Under the pieces are notes generated by a model, which saw only the letters and a list, made by a program, of their open reading frames with translations, searched no databases and was not told the DNA's origin. This document shows, in pieces, positions 365 through 9,644 of a stretch of 10,017 bases of DNA. Source of the stretch: a bacterium (GTDB taxonomy: Bacteria; AUK180); contig JAUXGM010000082.1 in assembly GCA_030622125.1 (NCBI GenBank), positions 1 to 10,017 of the forward strand, written 5' to 3'. Within the stretch, counting starts at the first letter, position 1, and every line of letters starts with the position of its first letter. The translations under genes and the position numbers were made by a program.

Positions 365-1441
365 ATGAGAACAAACAAATTTTTAGGACGAGATTGGATT
401 GATGCTACAATCGATTATACAAAAGAAGAATGGGAAACGCTGATCGAAGCAGCTCTTTATTTAAAGAAAAAATATGCTTTGGGAGAAGATACTTCGCATT
501 TATTAAAAGGCAAAACTCTTTTTACTATGTTTTTTAATCAATCTTTAAGGACACGAAGTACTTTTGCTGCGGGTATACAGCAGCTTGGTGGATACCATGT
601 TGATTTAGAACCTGGAAAGACTTATATTCCCGCAAGAAAAGGATTTGATATTCCTTATAAAACTGAAAGGATTGCTGATGTTGCGAGAATGTTATCAAGA
701 GTTGGTGATGCCATAGCTATTAGAATGTATGGACCTCCGGCACAGTGGATTTACGGTTTTGCAAACGCTACAATAAAAGAATTTGCAGAATTTTCCGATA
801 TTCCGATCATTAACATGGAATGTGACAAATACCATCCCACACAAGCATTAGCAGATTTAATTACTATTAAGGAAAAATTTGGCGGATTCAAAGGAAAAAA
901 ATTCACTATGTCTTGGGCATATTCCGGTTCTATAGAAAAACCGCGAGCAGTACCACAAAGTGTTATTCTTGCCGCGACAAAAATGGGAATGGATGTTACA
1001 TTAGCACATCCAAAAGGATTCGATTTAGATCCCGAGGTCATTAAACATGCTAAGGCATTTTCGGAACAAACTAATGGTTCTTTTAGAATAACAAATAATT
1101 TTGAAGATGGATTTAGAAATGCAGATATAGTTTACCCAAAATCGTGGGGAGCGTCTTCATGTTATACTTATGTTGATGATGAAGGAAATACTGTAAATAA
1201 AAAAAATCATGAAGAAGCAGAAAAATTAAATGAAGCGGCTAAATTATGGAAAACTACTGAGAAAGAAATGGAATTAACTGATAAAAACGGAATTTATATG
1301 CATTGCTTACCTGCTGATCGAGGGCAAGAAGTTACAGATAATGTTATTGATGGTCCTAAATCTGTAGTTATTGATGAAGCAGAAAACCGTCTCCATGCGC
1401 ATAAAGCAATTATGGCATTGCTGATGGGCAGCCGTTTATAA
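365..1441 (+). CDS. knotted carbamoyltransferase, YgeW/acetylornithine-carbamoyltransferase-like
   Basis: This 358-aa cytosolic enzyme belongs to the aspartate/ornithine carbamoyltransferase superfamily. It moves a carbamoyl group between phosphate and an amino (or amide) acceptor, and with a downstream carbamate kinase it probably runs in the phosphorolytic direction. Family motifs are intact: SLRTR carbamoyl-phosphate loop (60-64), HPTQ (157-160), YPKSWG (257-262) and HCLPAD (313-318). The Pro-containing insert at about 184-198 (SGSIEKPRAVPQ) matches the loop that forms the trefoil knot in YgeW and N-acetyl/succinyl-ornithine transcarbamylases. The stretch around 203-262 looks closest to YgeW, while the tail (DEAENRLHAHKAIMALL) looks like acetylornithine transcarbamylase. 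It lacks the N-terminal extension of E. coli YgeW (396 aa). The ATG follows AGGAGG (353-358) with a 6-nt spacer. True substrate is unknown; ordinary ornithine carbamoyltransferase is unlikely given the knot insert. Confidence 0.85.
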   Translation: MRTNKFLGRDWIDATIDYTKEEWETLIEAALYLKKKYALGEDTSHLLKGKTLFTMFFNQSLRTRSTFAAGIQQLGGYHVDLEPGKTYIPARKGFDIPYKTERIADVARMLSRVGDAIAIRMYGPPAQWIYGFANATIKEFAEFSDIPIINMECDKYHPTQALADLITIKEKFGGFKGKKFTMSWAYSGSIEKPRAVPQSVILAATKMGMDVTLAHPKGFDLDPEVIKHAKAFSEQTNGSFRITNNFEDGFRNADIVYPKSWGASSCYTYVDDEGNTVNKKNHEEAEKLNEAAKLWKTTEKEMELTDKNGIYMHCLPADRGQEVTDNVIDGPKSVVIDEAENRLHAHKAIMALLMGSRL

Positions 1442-1443
1442 TT

Positions 1444-1448
1444 GGAGG
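1444..1448 (+). promoter_or_regulatory. Shine-Dalgarno that fixes the second transcarbamylase start
   Basis: GGAGG lies 5 nt before ATG at 1454, a good spacing. The in-frame TTG at 1442 overlaps this site and directly abuts the preceding stop codon, so it would have no ribosome site of its own. The ATG at 1454 is therefore preferred. Confidence 0.8.
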
Positions 1449-1453
1449 TAGAA

Positions 1454-2476
1454 ATGGAAAGTCTAAAAGGTAAACATTTAATTACCACAATGGATTGGGA
1501 ATTAGATGACCTCATAAAGATCATTGAAGTTGCAGAAGATATGCAGAAGAACAGATATGCCGATAAATATACAAAACTGTTGGCATACAAAACCTTTCTG
1601 ATGTTTTTTTACAATCCTTCCGTCAGAACAAGACAATCATTTGAAGCGGCAGCAACCGAACTCGGAGGGCATGCCCAATTTCTTGAACCCAAATCAATGA
1701 GATTAAAAACCGCAAAATCGGCGGGTGAAACCGTTGAAGATGCGGCAAATGTAATGTCAAGATACGGCGTAGGTCTTGGAATAAGAATCCTTGAAGGAAA
1801 GATCAGTGCTTATGGTGACGGGGAAAAATTATTAAGAGAATATGCAAAATATTCAAAGATCCCTATTATTTCAATGGCTCATGATAAGTATCATCCAATG
1901 CAGGGGCTTGCTGATGTTATGGGTTTAAGAAAGCATCTTGGAAAGAATCTTGAAGGCAAAACATTTACCTTGACATGGGGCAAGGGTGCGTTAGCCCGTT
2001 CTTGGTGTTCAGTTCAGGAAGCATTAGTATTATATTCACGATTTGGTATGAATGTTAGAATTGCAAGACCGGATGGCTATGACCTTGATCCGGAAGTTAT
2101 TGAATATACAAAGAAACAATGTGAAAAGAACGGAAAAGAATTTTTCATAACAGGTGATCAGGAAGAGGCTTATGACGGAAGTAACATTATTTACTCCCGT
2201 AACTGGATGTCGCCAAATGCTTACCATGATGGAGAATATCACAAAGAAGAAGAGATTGAAAAATCATTACAACATCAAAATTGGATCTGTGATGGAAGAA
2301 AGATGAGATTGACCGATAACGGCATTTATATTCATCCCATGCCTGTTGACAGAGGAAACGAAGTAACAGATGAGGTTGCCTCAAGCCCGAGATCTATTAT
2401 TTATGATGTTGCGGAAAATCGTTTACATGTTCAAAAAGCAACAATGGCATTAACAATGTCGGATTTAGAGGTATAA
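1454..2476 (+). CDS. second knotted carbamoyltransferase with HPMP in place of HCLP
   Basis: This 340-aa paralogue of the preceding enzyme has almost exactly the length of Xanthomonas N-acetylornithine transcarbamylase. It starts 12 nt after its neighbour's stop. Visible motifs are the SVRTR carbamoyl-phosphate loop (56-60), HPMQ (147-150), the knot-region insert TWGKGALARSWCSVQ (174-188), and an acetylornithine-transcarbamylase-like tail, VAENRLHVQKATMAL (319-333). Two positions depart from its neighbour. The usual HCLP substrate motif is HPMP (294-297), which recalls the HPLP of aspartate carbamoyltransferase, and the usual KSWG is RNWM (249-252). Carbamoyl-phosphate binding should be retained while the acceptor pocket differs, so it probably uses a different substrate from the first enzyme. 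An alternative is that the two subunits form a mixed trimer with split roles. The substrate cannot be named from sequence. Confidence 0.85.
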   Translation: MESLKGKHLITTMDWELDDLIKIIEVAEDMQKNRYADKYTKLLAYKTFLMFFYNPSVRTRQSFEAAATELGGHAQFLEPKSMRLKTAKSAGETVEDAANVMSRYGVGLGIRILEGKISAYGDGEKLLREYAKYSKIPIISMAHDKYHPMQGLADVMGLRKHLGKNLEGKTFTLTWGKGALARSWCSVQEALVLYSRFGMNVRIARPDGYDLDPEVIEYTKKQCEKNGKEFFITGDQEEAYDGSNIIYSRNWMSPNAYHDGEYHKEEEIEKSLQHQNWICDGRKMRLTDNGIYIHPMPVDRGNEVTDEVASSPRSIIYDVAENRLHVQKATMALTMSDLEV

Positions 2477-2479
2477 TTT

Positions 2480-3415
2480 ATGAAATTAGTAGTAGCGATC
2501 GGCGGAAATTCTTTAATAAAGGATAAGCAGCATCAAACCGTTGAAGATCAGTACGATGCAATAATGAAAACTTCTGAACATATCTCCGAATTGGTTAAAT
2601 CGGGATATGATGTTGTTATTACACACGGTAATGGTCCTCAGGTCGGTTTTATCTTATTAAGGGCGGAAATGGCTTCAAAGACATTGCATACCGTACCGTT
2701 GGATTCCTGCGGAGCAGATACTCAGGGTGCAATCGGCTATGGTTTACAAAAGGCGATGAGTAATATTTTAAAAAGGAAAGGTGTTGAAGGCAGGATACCG
2801 GTAACGGTTGTTACCCAGGTATTGGTTGATAAGAATGATCCTGCATTTCAAAATCCTTCTAAACCCATCGGTCCTTTCTATTCGGAAGAGGAAGCCAAAG
2901 AAAAGAAAAAAAAATTGGGATGGAGTGTTGTGGAAGATGCCGGAAGAGGCTACAGAAGGGTTGTTGCCTCCCCAATTCCAAAGGAAATTATTGAGATCGG
3001 GGCAATCGAAAAATTATTGGAAGAAAAATTTGTCGTAATAGCAGTCGGTGGCGGAGGAATTCCAATTATCAGAAATGATAAGGGGGAAATAGAAGGTGTC
3101 GCAGCCGTTATAGATAAGGACTATGCTTCAAGCTTACTTGCCCGAAATATTGATGCCGATGTCTTTATTATTTCAACCGCCGTAGAAAAGGTCTATTTGA
3201 ATTTTGGTAAACCGGATCAAAAACCGCTCGATAAAATAACTGTTGGAGAAGCAAAGAAATATCTTGAAGAAGGACATTTTGCAAAAGGTTCAATGGAACC
3301 CAAAATTAAAGCTGTTATTGAATATCTTGAAAATGGCGGGAAAAAAGCCATAATAACAGATCCTCCAAATATAATGCGTGCGATAAATGGGGAAACAGGA
3401 ACAACAATTATCTAA
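2480..3415 (+). CDS. arcC: carbamate kinase
   Basis: Carbamate kinase (311 aa, normal length, cytosolic) catalyses carbamoyl phosphate + ADP to ATP + carbamate, which decays to ammonia and CO2. Diagnostic segments are present throughout: AIGGNSLI (6-13), THGNGPQVG (48-56), IGYGLQKAM (85-93), GPFYSEEEA (131-139), GYRRVVASPIP (157-167), VGGGGIP (189-195), the IDKDYASSLLA block (211-221) and the FAKGSMEPKI (267-276) segment. The ATG is only 3 nt after the preceding stop, with AGAGG about 8 nt upstream inside the previous gene, so translation is probably coupled. As last gene of a transcarbamylase operon its role is energy capture, as in arginine deiminase, allantoin or YgeW-type pathways, although no arginine deiminase or other lyase is present. 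The 3' end overlaps the convergent gene by 8 bp. Confidence 0.95.
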   Translation: MKLVVAIGGNSLIKDKQHQTVEDQYDAIMKTSEHISELVKSGYDVVITHGNGPQVGFILLRAEMASKTLHTVPLDSCGADTQGAIGYGLQKAMSNILKRKGVEGRIPVTVVTQVLVDKNDPAFQNPSKPIGPFYSEEEAKEKKKKLGWSVVEDAGRGYRRVVASPIPKEIIEIGAIEKLLEEKFVVIAVGGGGIPIIRNDKGEIEGVAAVIDKDYASSLLARNIDADVFIISTAVEKVYLNFGKPDQKPLDKITVGEAKKYLEEGHFAKGSMEPKIKAVIEYLENGGKKAIITDPPNIMRAINGETGTTII

Positions 3416-3887
3416 GATATTCTCGCAGATCGGGGTCGGAAAGAAATTTCTTTGAGAATCTTAATAATGCATACCTAAAGGTACGGTAATAGCTTCGCAC
3501 TGATTTTCCAACCACTTTATATTCTTTTGAAAATCTTTTATCTGCTGAGGATACCTCTATTTTCATTTTACAGGTATATGCCGTAAAAAAAATTCCTTCT
3601 ATTACTAAGGTAATAGATGATATTTTAAAATTCAATGATTTTTTTGAATTTTTATTGATACCAATCCCTCTTTTGATAAACTCTTTTTTAAGATTTTCTA
3701 CAAGGAAATCGGTCCATTGATGAAAATTTGCCTTATTATATTTATCGGGTATGGACTGAAGTTCTGAATCATCTTGAACATTGATCAACGAAATTTCTAA
3801 ATTTTGCTTATATTTTCCAACATCCTCTAATGGAACAGCCCAGAATTTATCCGGTACCCATATATGAGTGCAACCGGTTGCTGTCAA
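3408..3887 (-). CDS. small lipoprotein-like protein, probably missing its signal peptide
   Basis: This 159-aa product is of uncertain family. It begins TATGC after the initiator, which resembles a lipobox with Cys at residue 6. Reading further upstream adds only V-L-N before an in-frame TAA (3894-3896), so the N-terminal positive and hydrophobic part of a lipoprotein signal is absent. The body has the layout of YajG-like outer-membrane lipoproteins: a strand-rich start, a central FLVENLKKEFIKRGI helix (61-75), paired strands (84-113), an Arg/Tyr-rich helix (129-146) and a closing SDPDLREYL (150-158). YajG assignment is by overall look only. The only possible start near the front is TTG at 3887, overlapping the uvrC stop as TTGA, with no convincing ribosome site. 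I infer a gene that lost its 5' end in a deletion that also clipped uvrC. It may instead be a coupled, non-exported protein. Confidence 0.6.
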   Translation of the reverse strand: MTATGCTHIWVPDKFWAVPLEDVGKYKQNLEISLINVQDDSELQSIPDKYNKANFHQWTDFLVENLKKEFIKRGIGINKNSKKSLNFKISSITLVIEGIFFTAYTCKMKIEVSSADKRFSKEYKVVGKSVRSYYRTFRYALLRFSKKFLSDPDLREYLR

Positions 3888-5473
3888 GTTGAGGACTTAT
3901 CTCTTTTTTTTCTATGCCATTCAATAGAATGTCTGTGTGCCTCATCTCTGATCTTTATAATATATTTTAATAATGGGTTATCCTTTGAAAGAATGATCTT
4001 TTTTTTGTCTATTTTGTACAATTTCTCATTCTTTCCCTTGGCAATGGAAAGTATCGGAAGATCAAGTCCAAGTTCATCCACTGCTTTTTTTGCCATACCG
4101 ATCTGTCCCCTTCCACCATCTATGAGGAGCATTTGAGGTAAAGGATAATCATGTTTTTTCAGGTGTTTAAGATGAATAAGCACCGTTTGATAGATCGATC
4201 TATAATCATCGGGATTGCCGATCTCTGAAGTAAGAATATAGTGTCTATACATCTCTTTTTCAGGAATAAAATCCCGGAATCGGACAACACCACCTATTGT
4301 ATGCGTCCCAAAAAGATGTGATATATCAAATCCATCTACGATGTTTATATTCGGGTAGATCGGAAAGAGGGAATTAAAATTTATCAACTCTTTCTTTTTG
4401 AGAATATTAGTGAGTGTGCAATTAAGATTTTTCTCGGCGGTTTTAATGTAGTGGATATCCTTACTTTTATTTGTTGCAATTTTGACCTTTGTTTTTTTAT
4501 GAAGTAGATCTTTAAATATTGTCCTGATCTTATTACCGTTGATCTTTTCCGATAGAATGATCCTCTCAGGAACATGATTGTCAAGATAATACCGTTCAAG
4601 AAAATCGATCTGTTGATCCGATTCGTTGTTAAAATGATCAAAACTCTGTGTATAAATTCCCAATAATGCCCCTTCTAAAAAATGAAATATTCCGATCAAC
4701 AAAAGATTTTCCTTGAAAACATAATCAATAACATCAAAATTACCTTTTTGATTTACAATATAATTCATTTCTTTGTTTGTTAAAAAATTTAAGACATCTC
4801 TATAGAAAGCAGCATTCTCAAATTTTAATATCGACGCTTCATCGTTCATTATTTTTTCAAGATTCTTTATAAGTTCTTTTTTAGGATAATTCAGTTCCCT
4901 GATCGCTTTTTTAAAATTTTCATTATATGCCTCTTTTAAATTCCTTTTAATACAGGGAGCAAGGCATTTTGAAAGTGAATAATAAATGCAGGGTTTAGAA
5001 TCTAATTTGCCTTTGCACCATCGGAGTTTATACTTTGCCAAAAGATAATTAAGGAATTTTTTGGCACCGTTAGAATCCGTATACGGTCCGAAATAGATAG
5101 TATTTTTTCTTCTCTTTTTTACCCTTGTAAAATAAAGATATGGATAATCCAAATTCTTATTATAAGCTAAATAGGGATAACTTTTATCATCTTTAAGCAT
5201 TATATTGAATTTGGGTTTATGCTTTTTTATTTGGACATTTTCTAATAAAAGAGCTTCGTACTCATTTGCAGTAACGATAAAATCATAGTAGTGGAATGTT
5301 TTCTTCAGAAGAGATGTTTTATAGGTATCCGAATGAGAATGGAAATACGATGCTAATCGAACTTTTAATTTTTTGGCTTTTCCAATGTATATAATATTGA
5401 ACCGAGAATCATATAAAAAATAGATTCCCGGCTCACTTGGAATTCCTCTGATCTCTTTTTTACTTCTTTTCAC
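3884..5473 (-). CDS. uvrC: excinuclease ABC subunit C lacking the C-terminal HhH domain
   Basis: UvrC makes the two incisions flanking DNA damage in UvrABC nucleotide-excision repair. Seen here: GIY-YIG nuclease (GIY 16-18, YIG 29-31, Arg39, Glu78), a Cys cluster (C153, C162, C170, C174), a UVR-type UvrB-contact helix (about 198-232), and the RNase H-like nuclease with GFDISH (381-386, Asp383), LIDGGRGQ (450-457, Asp452) and IRDEAHRHSI (508-517). The protein stops at residue 529, three residues after HRKKRDK. In E. coli UvrC (610 aa) HRKKRAK leads straight into the tandem helix-hairpin-helix DNA-binding domain, which is missing here. Both catalytic domains look intact, so partial activity is plausible. 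The GTG start follows an in-frame TAG (5474-5476) and is the earliest possible. It lies 14 nt inside the upstream gene, so translation is coupled. No ribosome site is obvious. Confidence 0.93.
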   Translation of the reverse strand: MKRSKKEIRGIPSEPGIYFLYDSRFNIIYIGKAKKLKVRLASYFHSHSDTYKTSLLKKTFHYYDFIVTANEYEALLLENVQIKKHKPKFNIMLKDDKSYPYLAYNKNLDYPYLYFTRVKKRRKNTIYFGPYTDSNGAKKFLNYLLAKYKLRWCKGKLDSKPCIYYSLSKCLAPCIKRNLKEAYNENFKKAIRELNYPKKELIKNLEKIMNDEASILKFENAAFYRDVLNFLTNKEMNYIVNQKGNFDVIDYVFKENLLLIGIFHFLEGALLGIYTQSFDHFNNESDQQIDFLERYYLDNHVPERIILSEKINGNKIRTIFKDLLHKKTKVKIATNKSKDIHYIKTAEKNLNCTLTNILKKKELINFNSLFPIYPNINIVDGFDISHLFGTHTIGGVVRFRDFIPEKEMYRHYILTSEIGNPDDYRSIYQTVLIHLKHLKKHDYPLPQMLLIDGGRGQIGMAKKAVDELGLDLPILSIAKGKNEKLYKIDKKKIILSKDNPLLKYIIKIRDEAHRHSIEWHRKKRDKSST

Positions 5474-7496
5474 CTACTATTAAACTATTTGAAAATTTTA
5501 CCATTTTGGACATTGCTTTTTTATATTTGAAGTAAAATTTTCTCGGTGCAAGTTCTTTTTTAACAAATTTATCAAGTTGCAGCGAAAGTGTCGTTCCGCT
5601 ATTTATTATTGAAGAATTAATGGATATATATTTCTTATTGAATCTAATATTTTTCGGGACATAAGTAATTCTATACCCATCCGGAAGTTTGATATTAATG
5701 ATGTATTTCATAAATTCTCTATCGGCAAAAAATACCGGGAGTTCCCTTGTGTCCTTTCCCACCGAATAACCGTTAAACTTAATAAGTGGAATGTTGAACA
5801 AAATATTGCTGCCGGCAATTGATGCAAATCCTAATTTTTTGAAATTGATAACGATATATATTTTTTTATCCCTTTCCAAGTAATTTTTTATTTCGTAATC
5901 GCTCAATGATGCCTGTGGAATATAATTACTTAAAACCTGTTGCATTATAATATCAACATCTTCTTTCTTCCTATACTTCATCTCACGCAGCGCAGCATCA
6001 TTTAATTTGCTTATTTCTATTGACAGCTTTCCGGATAGGTCTCCTTCTTTACCGATATTGCCTTCCAAGACCATTTTTTCATTGAAATTCGTATCTTTCT
6101 GATCATACGAAGGGATATTACCAAATTCATTTTTTGTTACATCATAATATTTTTGCCCGTAAATAGGATAAGGAATGACCATATACGGTTGTGTGATTGC
6201 GCCAAAATAGAGATAATGAGAATTTACTTTTAAAATAGGATAGGAATATCTTTTATAGTTAAAGAAATTGTCCTTTTCCACATAATTAAATCGTGTAGAT
6301 GCAAAGATAAGAGAAGAATCTATATTAAAAAATGATAATATTTTTTGAGCTAAAACCGTTTTGTCAAGCGGTGAAGCAGTAGAGAATTTTAATATTTCAT
6401 CAATTGAATGCGGATAGTATGAATAACTGCGAGGACTTATGGGAGCATTAACGATCCCATCTTGAATAAAGTTATATACGGTCTTTAATATATTTACCGG
6501 ATCGTTCTTTTTTACATCAATTTTTTGAATATAATTTTTAAGATTATCCTTATCATAATTGTTTACTATTTCCTGAAATTTTTTTGAAAATTTTTCTTTT
6601 TCAATCTTGTCTGATATAATTATTCTCGGTGCAAATGCATTGAATGGCGGTAAAAAAGCAGTATCCGTATACTCTTTTTTAAATGAATAAGAGAAAACTA
6701 ATTTTTCCGGAGATGTCTTAATATTAAATTTCCCCTTGTTTAATATTTCATAGTTTATTTTTTCGGGATGAATAATTTCAATAATCTGATTAAGGTAGGG
6801 CACCTTATCTTCAAATGTTTCATCCAGGAAAAGTGGGAAATCCATTTTATCATCTGTGTATTTTATTGTAACTTGATAGGAGACAAGAGCCCCGATCTCT
6901 ACTTTTGGAACTGAAAATTTTATTTTACATAGATCAATATAATTCGGCAATTTACTAAATAAGGTCTCATCGGCAATCAAATTTTCATATATGGATTCAA
7001 CATGTCCGGTTGCCGATATTGACACAGCATAATCAAGAGAAAAATTCTGAGCTCTCTTAGAATGAAAATGAGAATGACTCGATGCCATTCTAATTCCGTC
7101 CTTTCTCAAGACCTTATAAATATATTTTTCGGTTACAACCGGATGCTCCGTGGAATAATCAATGGTAATCTTTTTCAACAGGTTTACATAATTGGAATTT
7201 CCATATTTATCTTTTGTTACAACAGCATTAAAAGCTGATTTGATATCAGGGTCATTGATCTTATTGATAGAATTCACATCATAAAATTTTCTTTTCTTAT
7301 CAAGTTTTATTTTATTGACATCTTCTTTTTTAAATGTCTTTTTACTGCCGTCAAGTTTCATTACTACTGAAATAGTATTATCTGAGACGGATTTTAAAAT
7401 ACATTTGTATTCCTGCCCTGATTTTAAATAAATCGTATCGGTAAATATACTCATTGCAAGAAATAATACCAATACAAAAAATGTTGTTCTTTTCAT
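5460..7496 (-). CDS. secreted DUF3857/transglutaminase-like protein with degenerate active site
   Basis: This 678-aa paralogue of the upstream gene has the same layout: a signal peptide (about 1-19, FFVLVLFLAM core), a short strand-rich domain (DTIYLKSGQEYKCIL..., about 20-66), a DUF3857-like region (about 105-290), a transglutaminase-like region (about 330-435) and a strand-rich C-terminal part. The ends align well (AP-x-x-(F/Y) to N-x-S-x-I). All three positions that form the catalytic triad in the neighbour are changed: Cys to Pro376 (in ASPLDK), His to Tyr417 and Asp to Gly432 (in YLYFGA). It should therefore be catalytically dead, acting as a binding or structural partner in the periplasm. 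The reading frame is long and undamaged, so it is not simply decaying. The ATG has AGGAGT (7507-7502), which overlaps the preceding stop, and the gap is 9 nt. The family's function is not known precisely. Confidence 0.8.
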   Translation of the reverse strand: MKRTTFFVLVLFLAMSIFTDTIYLKSGQEYKCILKSVSDNTISVVMKLDGSKKTFKKEDVNKIKLDKKRKFYDVNSINKINDPDIKSAFNAVVTKDKYGNSNYVNLLKKITIDYSTEHPVVTEKYIYKVLRKDGIRMASSHSHFHSKRAQNFSLDYAVSISATGHVESIYENLIADETLFSKLPNYIDLCKIKFSVPKVEIGALVSYQVTIKYTDDKMDFPLFLDETFEDKVPYLNQIIEIIHPEKINYEILNKGKFNIKTSPEKLVFSYSFKKEYTDTAFLPPFNAFAPRIIISDKIEKEKFSKKFQEIVNNYDKDNLKNYIQKIDVKKNDPVNILKTVYNFIQDGIVNAPISPRSYSYYPHSIDEILKFSTASPLDKTVLAQKILSFFNIDSSLIFASTRFNYVEKDNFFNYKRYSYPILKVNSHYLYFGAITQPYMVIPYPIYGQKYYDVTKNEFGNIPSYDQKDTNFNEKMVLEGNIGKEGDLSGKLSIEISKLNDAALREMKYRKKEDVDIIMQQVLSNYIPQASLSDYEIKNYLERDKKIYIVINFKKLGFASIAGSNILFNIPLIKFNGYSVGKDTRELPVFFADREFMKYIINIKLPDGYRITYVPKNIRFNKKYISINSSIINSGTTLSLQLDKFVKKELAPRKFYFKYKKAMSKMVKFSNSLIVGEKK

Positions 7497-7505
7497 AATA
7501 TACTC

Positions 7506-9644
7506 CTACTTCTTTTTTATAATAATGGATTTGTTAGCGTAATTCAATATCTTCAGATGAGCGGTTCTATACTTTTCGTAATGTTCGGGTGCAATTATTC
7601 GATTATATCTTTTGTAATTATCAACAAGTGTTATTTTCCCATCTTTAAAATCGAACTTTCCATGATATTCAAAATCATCTGTTTTAATATCCAATGACTC
7701 GGGCAAATATTTTATCACATAACCATTTGGTATTTTAATTTCGTATTTATGCCCGGTATAGCGGGATGACCAAAATTCTATCGGATACTTTCTCGTTTTA
7801 AGTTCAATTGCAGGGAAACGGTAATTCCAACCGGGAACCTTAAATATCATATATTTTCCGGCAGTTGTCGGATAATCGTAAAGATTGTACGAATAGGTTA
7901 AGAAAAACGGTTCAAAGTAATTTGTAACATCAGAAATTTTATATCCGACCAATACACCTTTTGGCGACATACCGTTGACCATATTTTTGAAGATTGCTTC
8001 TCTCTCTTTTTCTCCTTTTCTATAGGTGTAAAGTCCCCTTAATCCCGCTTCATAATCTCCCGTATATTTCCCAACCGTTTTACCCGTAAAAACACCTTTT
8101 TTGTTGATATTGATATTTATATCATAAAAGTTCATTTCATATTCAGGCTCGGGAACCTCTATTTTTCGAACGGTATTCAGTATCTCATTTACAGCATAGA
8201 TGCCTTTGTCATCACCACGGAAAGAAGGATATCTATAAGATGAGGCGGTAGAGTCAAGATAAAAGATATTATCTTTGAAGTGAACCTCTGTAATGGCATG
8301 GTTGCCGTCTATAACAGGAATATCAACGATCATATCTTCCGAACTACTTGATTTAACGGTTACGGGATATGCCTTTAAGTCCGGAATATTTAATGCTTTT
8401 ACCATCGTGGCAAAAAGGATCGCTTTATCTATACAATCACCCTTTCTATTGTTTAAAGTTTCAATAGCGGGATGTCCCGTGATCCCGGAACTTATCGAAC
8501 CCTTAACGGAGGTATATTCAATATGCGTTTGAAGCCAATGGTAGATCTTGGCGAGTTTGATTTCAGGATCATCTTTTTGATCCGTGATCTCCTGAACCGT
8601 TTTTGTGATCTCGGGGGTTACCTTCATTCTCTCTTTTTCCATTCCTCCGATCCAGTTGTCTAATTCCTTTCTATCCTTAAAAATCGTCCCTTGAATATTG
8701 GGGAGGAAATCCTCAATGTTCTTTTGCTGCGGTTCTTCTACATAAGGTGGCATATTTTTCATTGTCCAGGTATATCCTGTTGAATATTGTTTTTTTGCGA
8801 TCTTCGGTTTCCCGAATTTTCCCATATTGTAAGCCTTATAGTTTAAAAAAACATTTTTAACAAAGACATTTTTCTTATCCTTGTCCTTATACTTTAAGTA
8901 TCTGGGAACGCTTACACTATATTTAGAAAAATAAACGGGAACATCCCCTTGAAAATAAAATTCGGGCTCAAATATTTTTGGATTTGTCGGGGCAAAATTA
9001 TTCATTGAATATTTATATTCAACGAGTCTTCCCTCTTCAACATTTGGGATTGTGTAAACCCTTCTTTTGCTATTTCCATAACTCCATGATTCAGCCTGAG
9101 GTGTTACTATCTTGAAATTATTCGGATCAAAATTATAAACCTTTCCATCCTCGGTAATGGTTCTTCCAATATTGAGTGTTGATTTATACCTTTCCTCAGC
9201 CATAAAAAATGACATCTTTGAAAGATCCGTTTTTGCTTTTGGAGAGGTAACATAACCGAGAAAATGGTATGTATAAATTCTTGTTCCATCCGACTTTAAC
9301 CTTGAATAACCGACATCAATGATATGAACATAGTCGGTACCAGGAAACTTTGCGGCTAAATTCTTTCCTATCTTAAAATATTTTTGATATTTTTGCTGCT
9401 CTTTATAGGAAAGATTTGTAACATTTTGAGATATTTCTTTCTTTGTCTCCTTTTGACTTCCGAACCCGATTTCACTGACCTCTGTTGTCGGTATCTCTTT
9501 TCCACTTTGCAAAATAACTTTATCTTTTGTCATCTCCTGAATTGTAACATTTTCCAATAGTTCACCGTTCCTAAGGTTAATTCTATCAGCAGTTACTCCC
9601 ATCAAAAGAGAAAAGATCGCTAAGAAAATAAGGTTTTTTTTCAT
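7506..9644 (-). CDS. secreted DUF3857/transglutaminase-like protein with intact triad
   Basis: This 712-aa exported protein has a signal peptide at 1-19 (IFLAIFSLLMGVTA, cleavage likely before Asp20). A short strand-rich domain follows (DRINLRNGELLENVTI..., about 20-62). The DUF3857 region (about 100-300) carries IPNVEEGRLVEYKY (199-212) and FYFQGDVPVYFSKYSVSVP (229-247). The transglutaminase-like core (about 355-470) has a complete Cys-His-Asp triad: Cys404 in KGDCIDKA, His449 in GNHAITEV and Asp464 in FYLDST. The C-terminal strand-rich part ends in IIIKKK. Proteins of this layout are often annotated as transglutaminase-like cysteine peptidases, but substrates are not established. Location is periplasmic or surface. 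It is the first gene of the leftward set, with GGAGG (9653-9649) 4 nt before the ATG and a promoter about 65 nt upstream. Its degenerate paralogue lies next, so the two may act as a pair. Confidence 0.85.
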   Translation of the reverse strand: MKKNLIFLAIFSLLMGVTADRINLRNGELLENVTIQEMTKDKVILQSGKEIPTTEVSEIGFGSQKETKKEISQNVTNLSYKEQQKYQKYFKIGKNLAAKFPGTDYVHIIDVGYSRLKSDGTRIYTYHFLGYVTSPKAKTDLSKMSFFMAEERYKSTLNIGRTITEDGKVYNFDPNNFKIVTPQAESWSYGNSKRRVYTIPNVEEGRLVEYKYSMNNFAPTNPKIFEPEFYFQGDVPVYFSKYSVSVPRYLKYKDKDKKNVFVKNVFLNYKAYNMGKFGKPKIAKKQYSTGYTWTMKNMPPYVEEPQQKNIEDFLPNIQGTIFKDRKELDNWIGGMEKERMKVTPEITKTVQEITDQKDDPEIKLAKIYHWLQTHIEYTSVKGSISSGITGHPAIETLNNRKGDCIDKAILFATMVKALNIPDLKAYPVTVKSSSSEDMIVDIPVIDGNHAITEVHFKDNIFYLDSTASSYRYPSFRGDDKGIYAVNEILNTVRKIEVPEPEYEMNFYDINININKKGVFTGKTVGKYTGDYEAGLRGLYTYRKGEKEREAIFKNMVNGMSPKGVLVGYKISDVTNYFEPFFLTYSYNLYDYPTTAGKYMIFKVPGWNYRFPAIELKTRKYPIEFWSSRYTGHKYEIKIPNGYVIKYLPESLDIKTDDFEYHGKFDFKDGKITLVDNYKRYNRIIAPEHYEKYRTAHLKILNYANKSIIIKKK

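Follow-up and report, generated by a model that had tools for sequence, protein, structure and literature searches.

The uvrC gene in the stretch of DNA that we analysed (10,017 nucleotides, hereafter the window) encodes a protein that ends without the C-terminal tandem helix-hairpin-helix (HhH) domain, while its relatives in the same family keep that domain. Taken as a whole, the account that we consider moderately probable is that a recent, lineage-specific break shortened uvrC, that what is left of UvrC is most likely still functional, and that the lipoprotein-like open reading frame (ORF) now adjoining it is probably a remnant. The preceding sequence-only reading, which had proposed damage to both genes at one point, was partly supported.

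The uvrC gene lies on the minus strand at positions 3884 to 5473 and encodes 529 amino acids with a GIY-YIG nuclease, a putative UvrB-binding (UVR) motif and an RNase H nuclease, as judged from the ORF, Pfam, TIGR00194 and an alignment with relatives. Its TIGR00194 score of 386.9 bits passes the curated cut-off of 285.45, and the match covers only positions 2 to 538 of the 574 in that model. Both nuclease domains (PF01541 and PF08459) score above their Pfam cut-offs, and the UVR motif (PF02151) falls below its own at 16.1 bits (cut-off 21.5). In the alignment with relatives the GIY-YIG region is intact, the cysteines of WC, PC, KC and PC are kept, and so are the aspartates of the RNase H domain (in GFDISH and LLIDGG) and the histidine of DEAH; we take this D/D/H set to be the catalytic residues, as is general for UvrC. 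The branch of the window UvrC in a FastTree phylogeny (0.33, against 0.49 for the sister lineage) is not lengthened. With these residues kept and the branch not lengthened, the truncation must be recent or selection must still act on the protein.

The end of the protein was confirmed in the window DNA as HhH-less. UvrC had been read as stopping just after HRKKRDK, and the translation does close with HRKKRDKSST and a stop codon; the terminal RDEAHRHSIEWHRKKRDKSST ends 12 residues beyond the RNase H domain match (Pfam). The last codons past that domain (3884 to 3910, minus strand) are conserved through RDK and then give only SST and the stop, where relatives run on into the HhH domain. A tandem HhH was found neither in UvrC nor in the three frames downstream of its stop, which hold just the next ORF. 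A simple frameshift at the run of eight A before the stop was ruled out since the reading frame past the run yields the conserved RDK and the other frames hold no HhH, and a UvrC-lipoprotein fusion through -1 slippage at the same run was ruled out by a TAA in the -1 frame.

The UvrCs of all four same-family genomes, 583 to 589 amino acids long, can be aligned with the window protein up to its end, beyond which they have 54 to 60 more residues, VPGIG hairpins among them. End to end they are 54 to 56 residues longer, so the earlier expectation of some 60 to 70 extra codons was right about the tail and slightly high about its size. Of two same-class genomes, one also has a long UvrC; in the other the gene is cut off by the contig end. 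Because four of four same-family UvrCs carry the HhH tail, the tail is, on this comparison, ancestral and the short UvrC a derived form found only in the window lineage. An old, stable arrangement, which the sequence-only reading had named as the finding that would overturn it, is not what the family displays: every same-family UvrC is long, and the neighbouring lipoprotein-like ORF is in none of the four genomes. In these same-family UvrCs (L086, L085, L087) the second HhH hairpin is without the usual G-h-G motif, as is also seen in some other bacteria, so that the domain has a partly eroded look throughout the family.

We also searched the rest of the source assembly, which is fragmented into 192 contigs and 96% complete. 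Its single UvrC RNase H domain leaves no second UvrC, and HhH searches of the assembly found no uvrC-type HhH tail or stand-alone piece elsewhere, which answers in the negative the two places where the sequence-only reading had suggested looking. A move of the domain to another site was likewise rejected, the HhH matches being RuvA, DNA ligase, a DisA-like protein and other larger proteins. UvrA and UvrB are both present at full length. Our account is supported by the tail in all four family members, by an assembly with neither a uvrC-type HhH remnant nor another UvrC, and by the full-length partners. The assembly also contains a 685-amino-acid ORF (L164, G000:C170) that remotely matches the N-terminal region of UvrC, starts like a metallophosphoesterase and has counterparts in relatives.

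The lipoprotein-like ORF (3408 to 3887, minus strand) is 159 codons long from a TTG start that overlaps the uvrC stop as TTGA. As had been read, it opens VLNLTATGC-TH directly after an in-frame TAA, and the TTG at 3887 is the only possible start near its N-terminus. From that TTG the reading begins LTATGC-THIW, which is a lipobox (by consensus match only) without a signal peptide before it, just L-T-A-T-G-C being left. The likeness to Lipoprotein_16 (PF03923), a family of LptE/PqiC-like small lipoproteins, consists of a weak profile match and a similar predicted order of helix, three strands and helix; it differs in that the ORF scores 18.3 bits, below the Pfam cut-off of 25, and in that a structure search with its low-confidence model gave no significant fold match. 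A Lipoprotein_16 match in G002 was rejected as a relative since it looks like LptE beside a leuS-like ORF. No homologue of the ORF was found in 386 genomes, and a search in plasmids with the DNA across the junction gave no match. The lipobox is thus what stands of the claim that a lipoprotein lost its signal peptide; truncation of the ORF is unproved because those 386 genomes yielded no intact homologue.

The genes on either side place the junction in context. Upstream of uvrC, a DUF3857 protein (5460 to 7496, minus strand) overlaps it by 14 bases (5460 to 5473), as it does in same-family relatives, and the block of two DUF3857 genes and uvrC is conserved in the family. On the other side, a carbamate kinase (2480 to 3415, plus strand) converges on the lipoprotein-like ORF with an 8-base overlap and belongs to a block with two carbamoyltransferases that is also conserved. 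In the relatives examined the two blocks are on different contigs or non-adjacent, the carbamate kinase lying away from uvrC, and the genes that follow uvrC and carbamate kinase vary. Because the two conserved blocks lie apart in relatives, the junction between uvrC and the lipoprotein-like ORF is, by gene order, a new arrangement. Given the non-adjacent blocks and an ORF present in no other of the 386 genomes, the break may have arisen by deletion, rearrangement or misjoining. The two truncations do fit the single deletion or assembly collapse that had been proposed, but, with the flanking blocks lying apart in relatives, they would be accounted for equally well by the breakpoint of a rearrangement or by a chimeric contig, and a single deletion is not favoured.

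The strongest alternative is an assembly error, in which two separate parts of the genome were joined in the contig or a stretch was left out, so that uvrC would in reality keep its HhH tail and the lipoprotein its signal peptide. Two genes cut at the same few bases, flanking blocks that are not adjacent in relatives, an HhH domain in every same-family relative and the fragmentation of the assembly all fit such an error. However, the assembly holds no uvrC HhH fragment elsewhere. Beside the junction, a perfect 12-base palindrome, GCAACCGGTTGC (3870 to 3881), codes for the A-T-G-C of the lipobox; its single copy in the assembly rules it out as a repeat family and means that the join was not caused by a repeat covering it. 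Long direct repeats are absent near the junction, which together with the single-copy palindrome argues mildly against a repeat-driven misjoin, and GC content has no step there. We regard an assembly error as rather unlikely, although a double truncation at one point of a fragmented assembly should be believed only with read support.

On the account that we prefer, with the DNA presumed correct as assembled, a recent lineage-specific deletion or rearrangement would have taken away the last 54 to 60 codons of uvrC, which encode the HhH domain, and placed the gene next to an unrelated lipoprotein-like ORF whose signal peptide was lost. The ORF would probably be a remnant, dead or cytoplasmic, and any translation of it would come from coupling at the TTGA. 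With the shortened UvrC, nucleotide-excision repair most likely still takes place: UvrB binding and the 3' cut by GIY-YIG would persist, and the 5' cut by RNase H would be less efficient or confined to fewer substrates. The (HhH)2 domain of E. coli UvrC binds single-stranded DNA, and 5' incision, in some contexts also 3' incision, depends on it (PMC7835731); UV survival in E. coli needs both HhH motifs (PMC9426483). This requirement speaks against our account, as do the 192-contig assembly and the unproved truncation of the ORF. In H. pylori, disrupting the single HhH gave no marked rise in UV sensitivity, and some Helicobacter are without the domain (PMC9426483). Given these findings, reduced to normal repair is to be expected in the window lineage and its loss is not certain. 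Repair without HhH is plausible by this precedent and less unusual than the sequence-only reading had implied.

Like the window protein, Helicobacter UvrCs have both nuclease domains with the C-terminal DNA-binding domain truncated or absent, but there the reduction spans a genus, whereas here it is in one genome and all same-family relatives keep the domain (PMC9426483). The degrading uvrC of vesicomyid clam symbionts is similar in having deletions within the gene in one lineage with relatives intact; it differs in its fragmented ORFs and the additional degradation of uvrB, whereas the rest of the window UvrC is intact and UvrA and UvrB are present (PMC5310779). Most likely the truncation is recent and ordinary, and the UvrC that is left works in part or in full. 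We think it unlikely that the lineage has switched to stable HhH-less repair after a family-wide erosion of the second hairpin; if it has, this UvrC would be a natural test case for 5' incision without HhH. If the DNA is real, it adds a further HhH-less UvrC in a lineage whose relatives keep a domain said to be necessary for 5' incision, and would help show that HhH is dispensable in some bacteria.

A survey of 97 uvrC loci, partly from related organisms so that its counts do not estimate a frequency, found 83 long UvrCs and flagged 7 as short; a further 4 were cut off where the stretch ended, and 3 had no match that could be scored. Apart from the window, the flagged loci were L123 (discarded as masked sequence), L068 (discarded as a frameshift with HhH in another frame), three clear cases (L160, L161 and L073) and L162, which has an unrelated tail and is uncertain; the 88 scorable loci other than the window gave three clear HhH-less UvrCs and one uncertain one. 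Those of L160 (430 amino acids), L073 (a Levyibacteriota MAG, 424 amino acids) and L161 (556 amino acids) end, like the window protein, a few residues from the RNase H domain. In L160 and L073 the middle region is shortened too, whereas the window UvrC is full length up to the end of RNase H. UvrCs ending at about the same place thus occur elsewhere, one of them in a 2-contig, 99% complete genome. The HhH-less UvrC of the window is not unique. These short UvrCs and the Helicobacter precedent support our account, as do the kept residues, the short branch and the separation of the flanking blocks in relatives. That the short UvrC is instead a settled functional form, followed by a complete cytoplasmic coupled gene that starts at the TTG and resembles a lipobox by chance, is improbable: the frame intact across 159 codons, a TTGA overlap typical of coupled genes and the short UvrCs of other lineages would fit it, but the arrangement occurs in no same-family genome, the lipobox sits exactly at the N-terminus and no well-placed Shine-Dalgarno precedes the TTG at 3887.

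The flanking blocks have features of their own. Two tandem carbamoyltransferase paralogues precede the carbamate kinase (365 to 2476, plus strand), and neither reaches any NCBIfam carbamoyltransferase cut-off, the best being the N-acetylornithine type (275.6 against 288). At 96% and 89% identity to G002 they are far more conserved than uvrC (54%). The two adjacent DUF3857 proteins (5460 to 9644, minus strand), conserved beside uvrC in the family, have signal-peptide-like N-termini, and the longer of them has a transglutaminase core.
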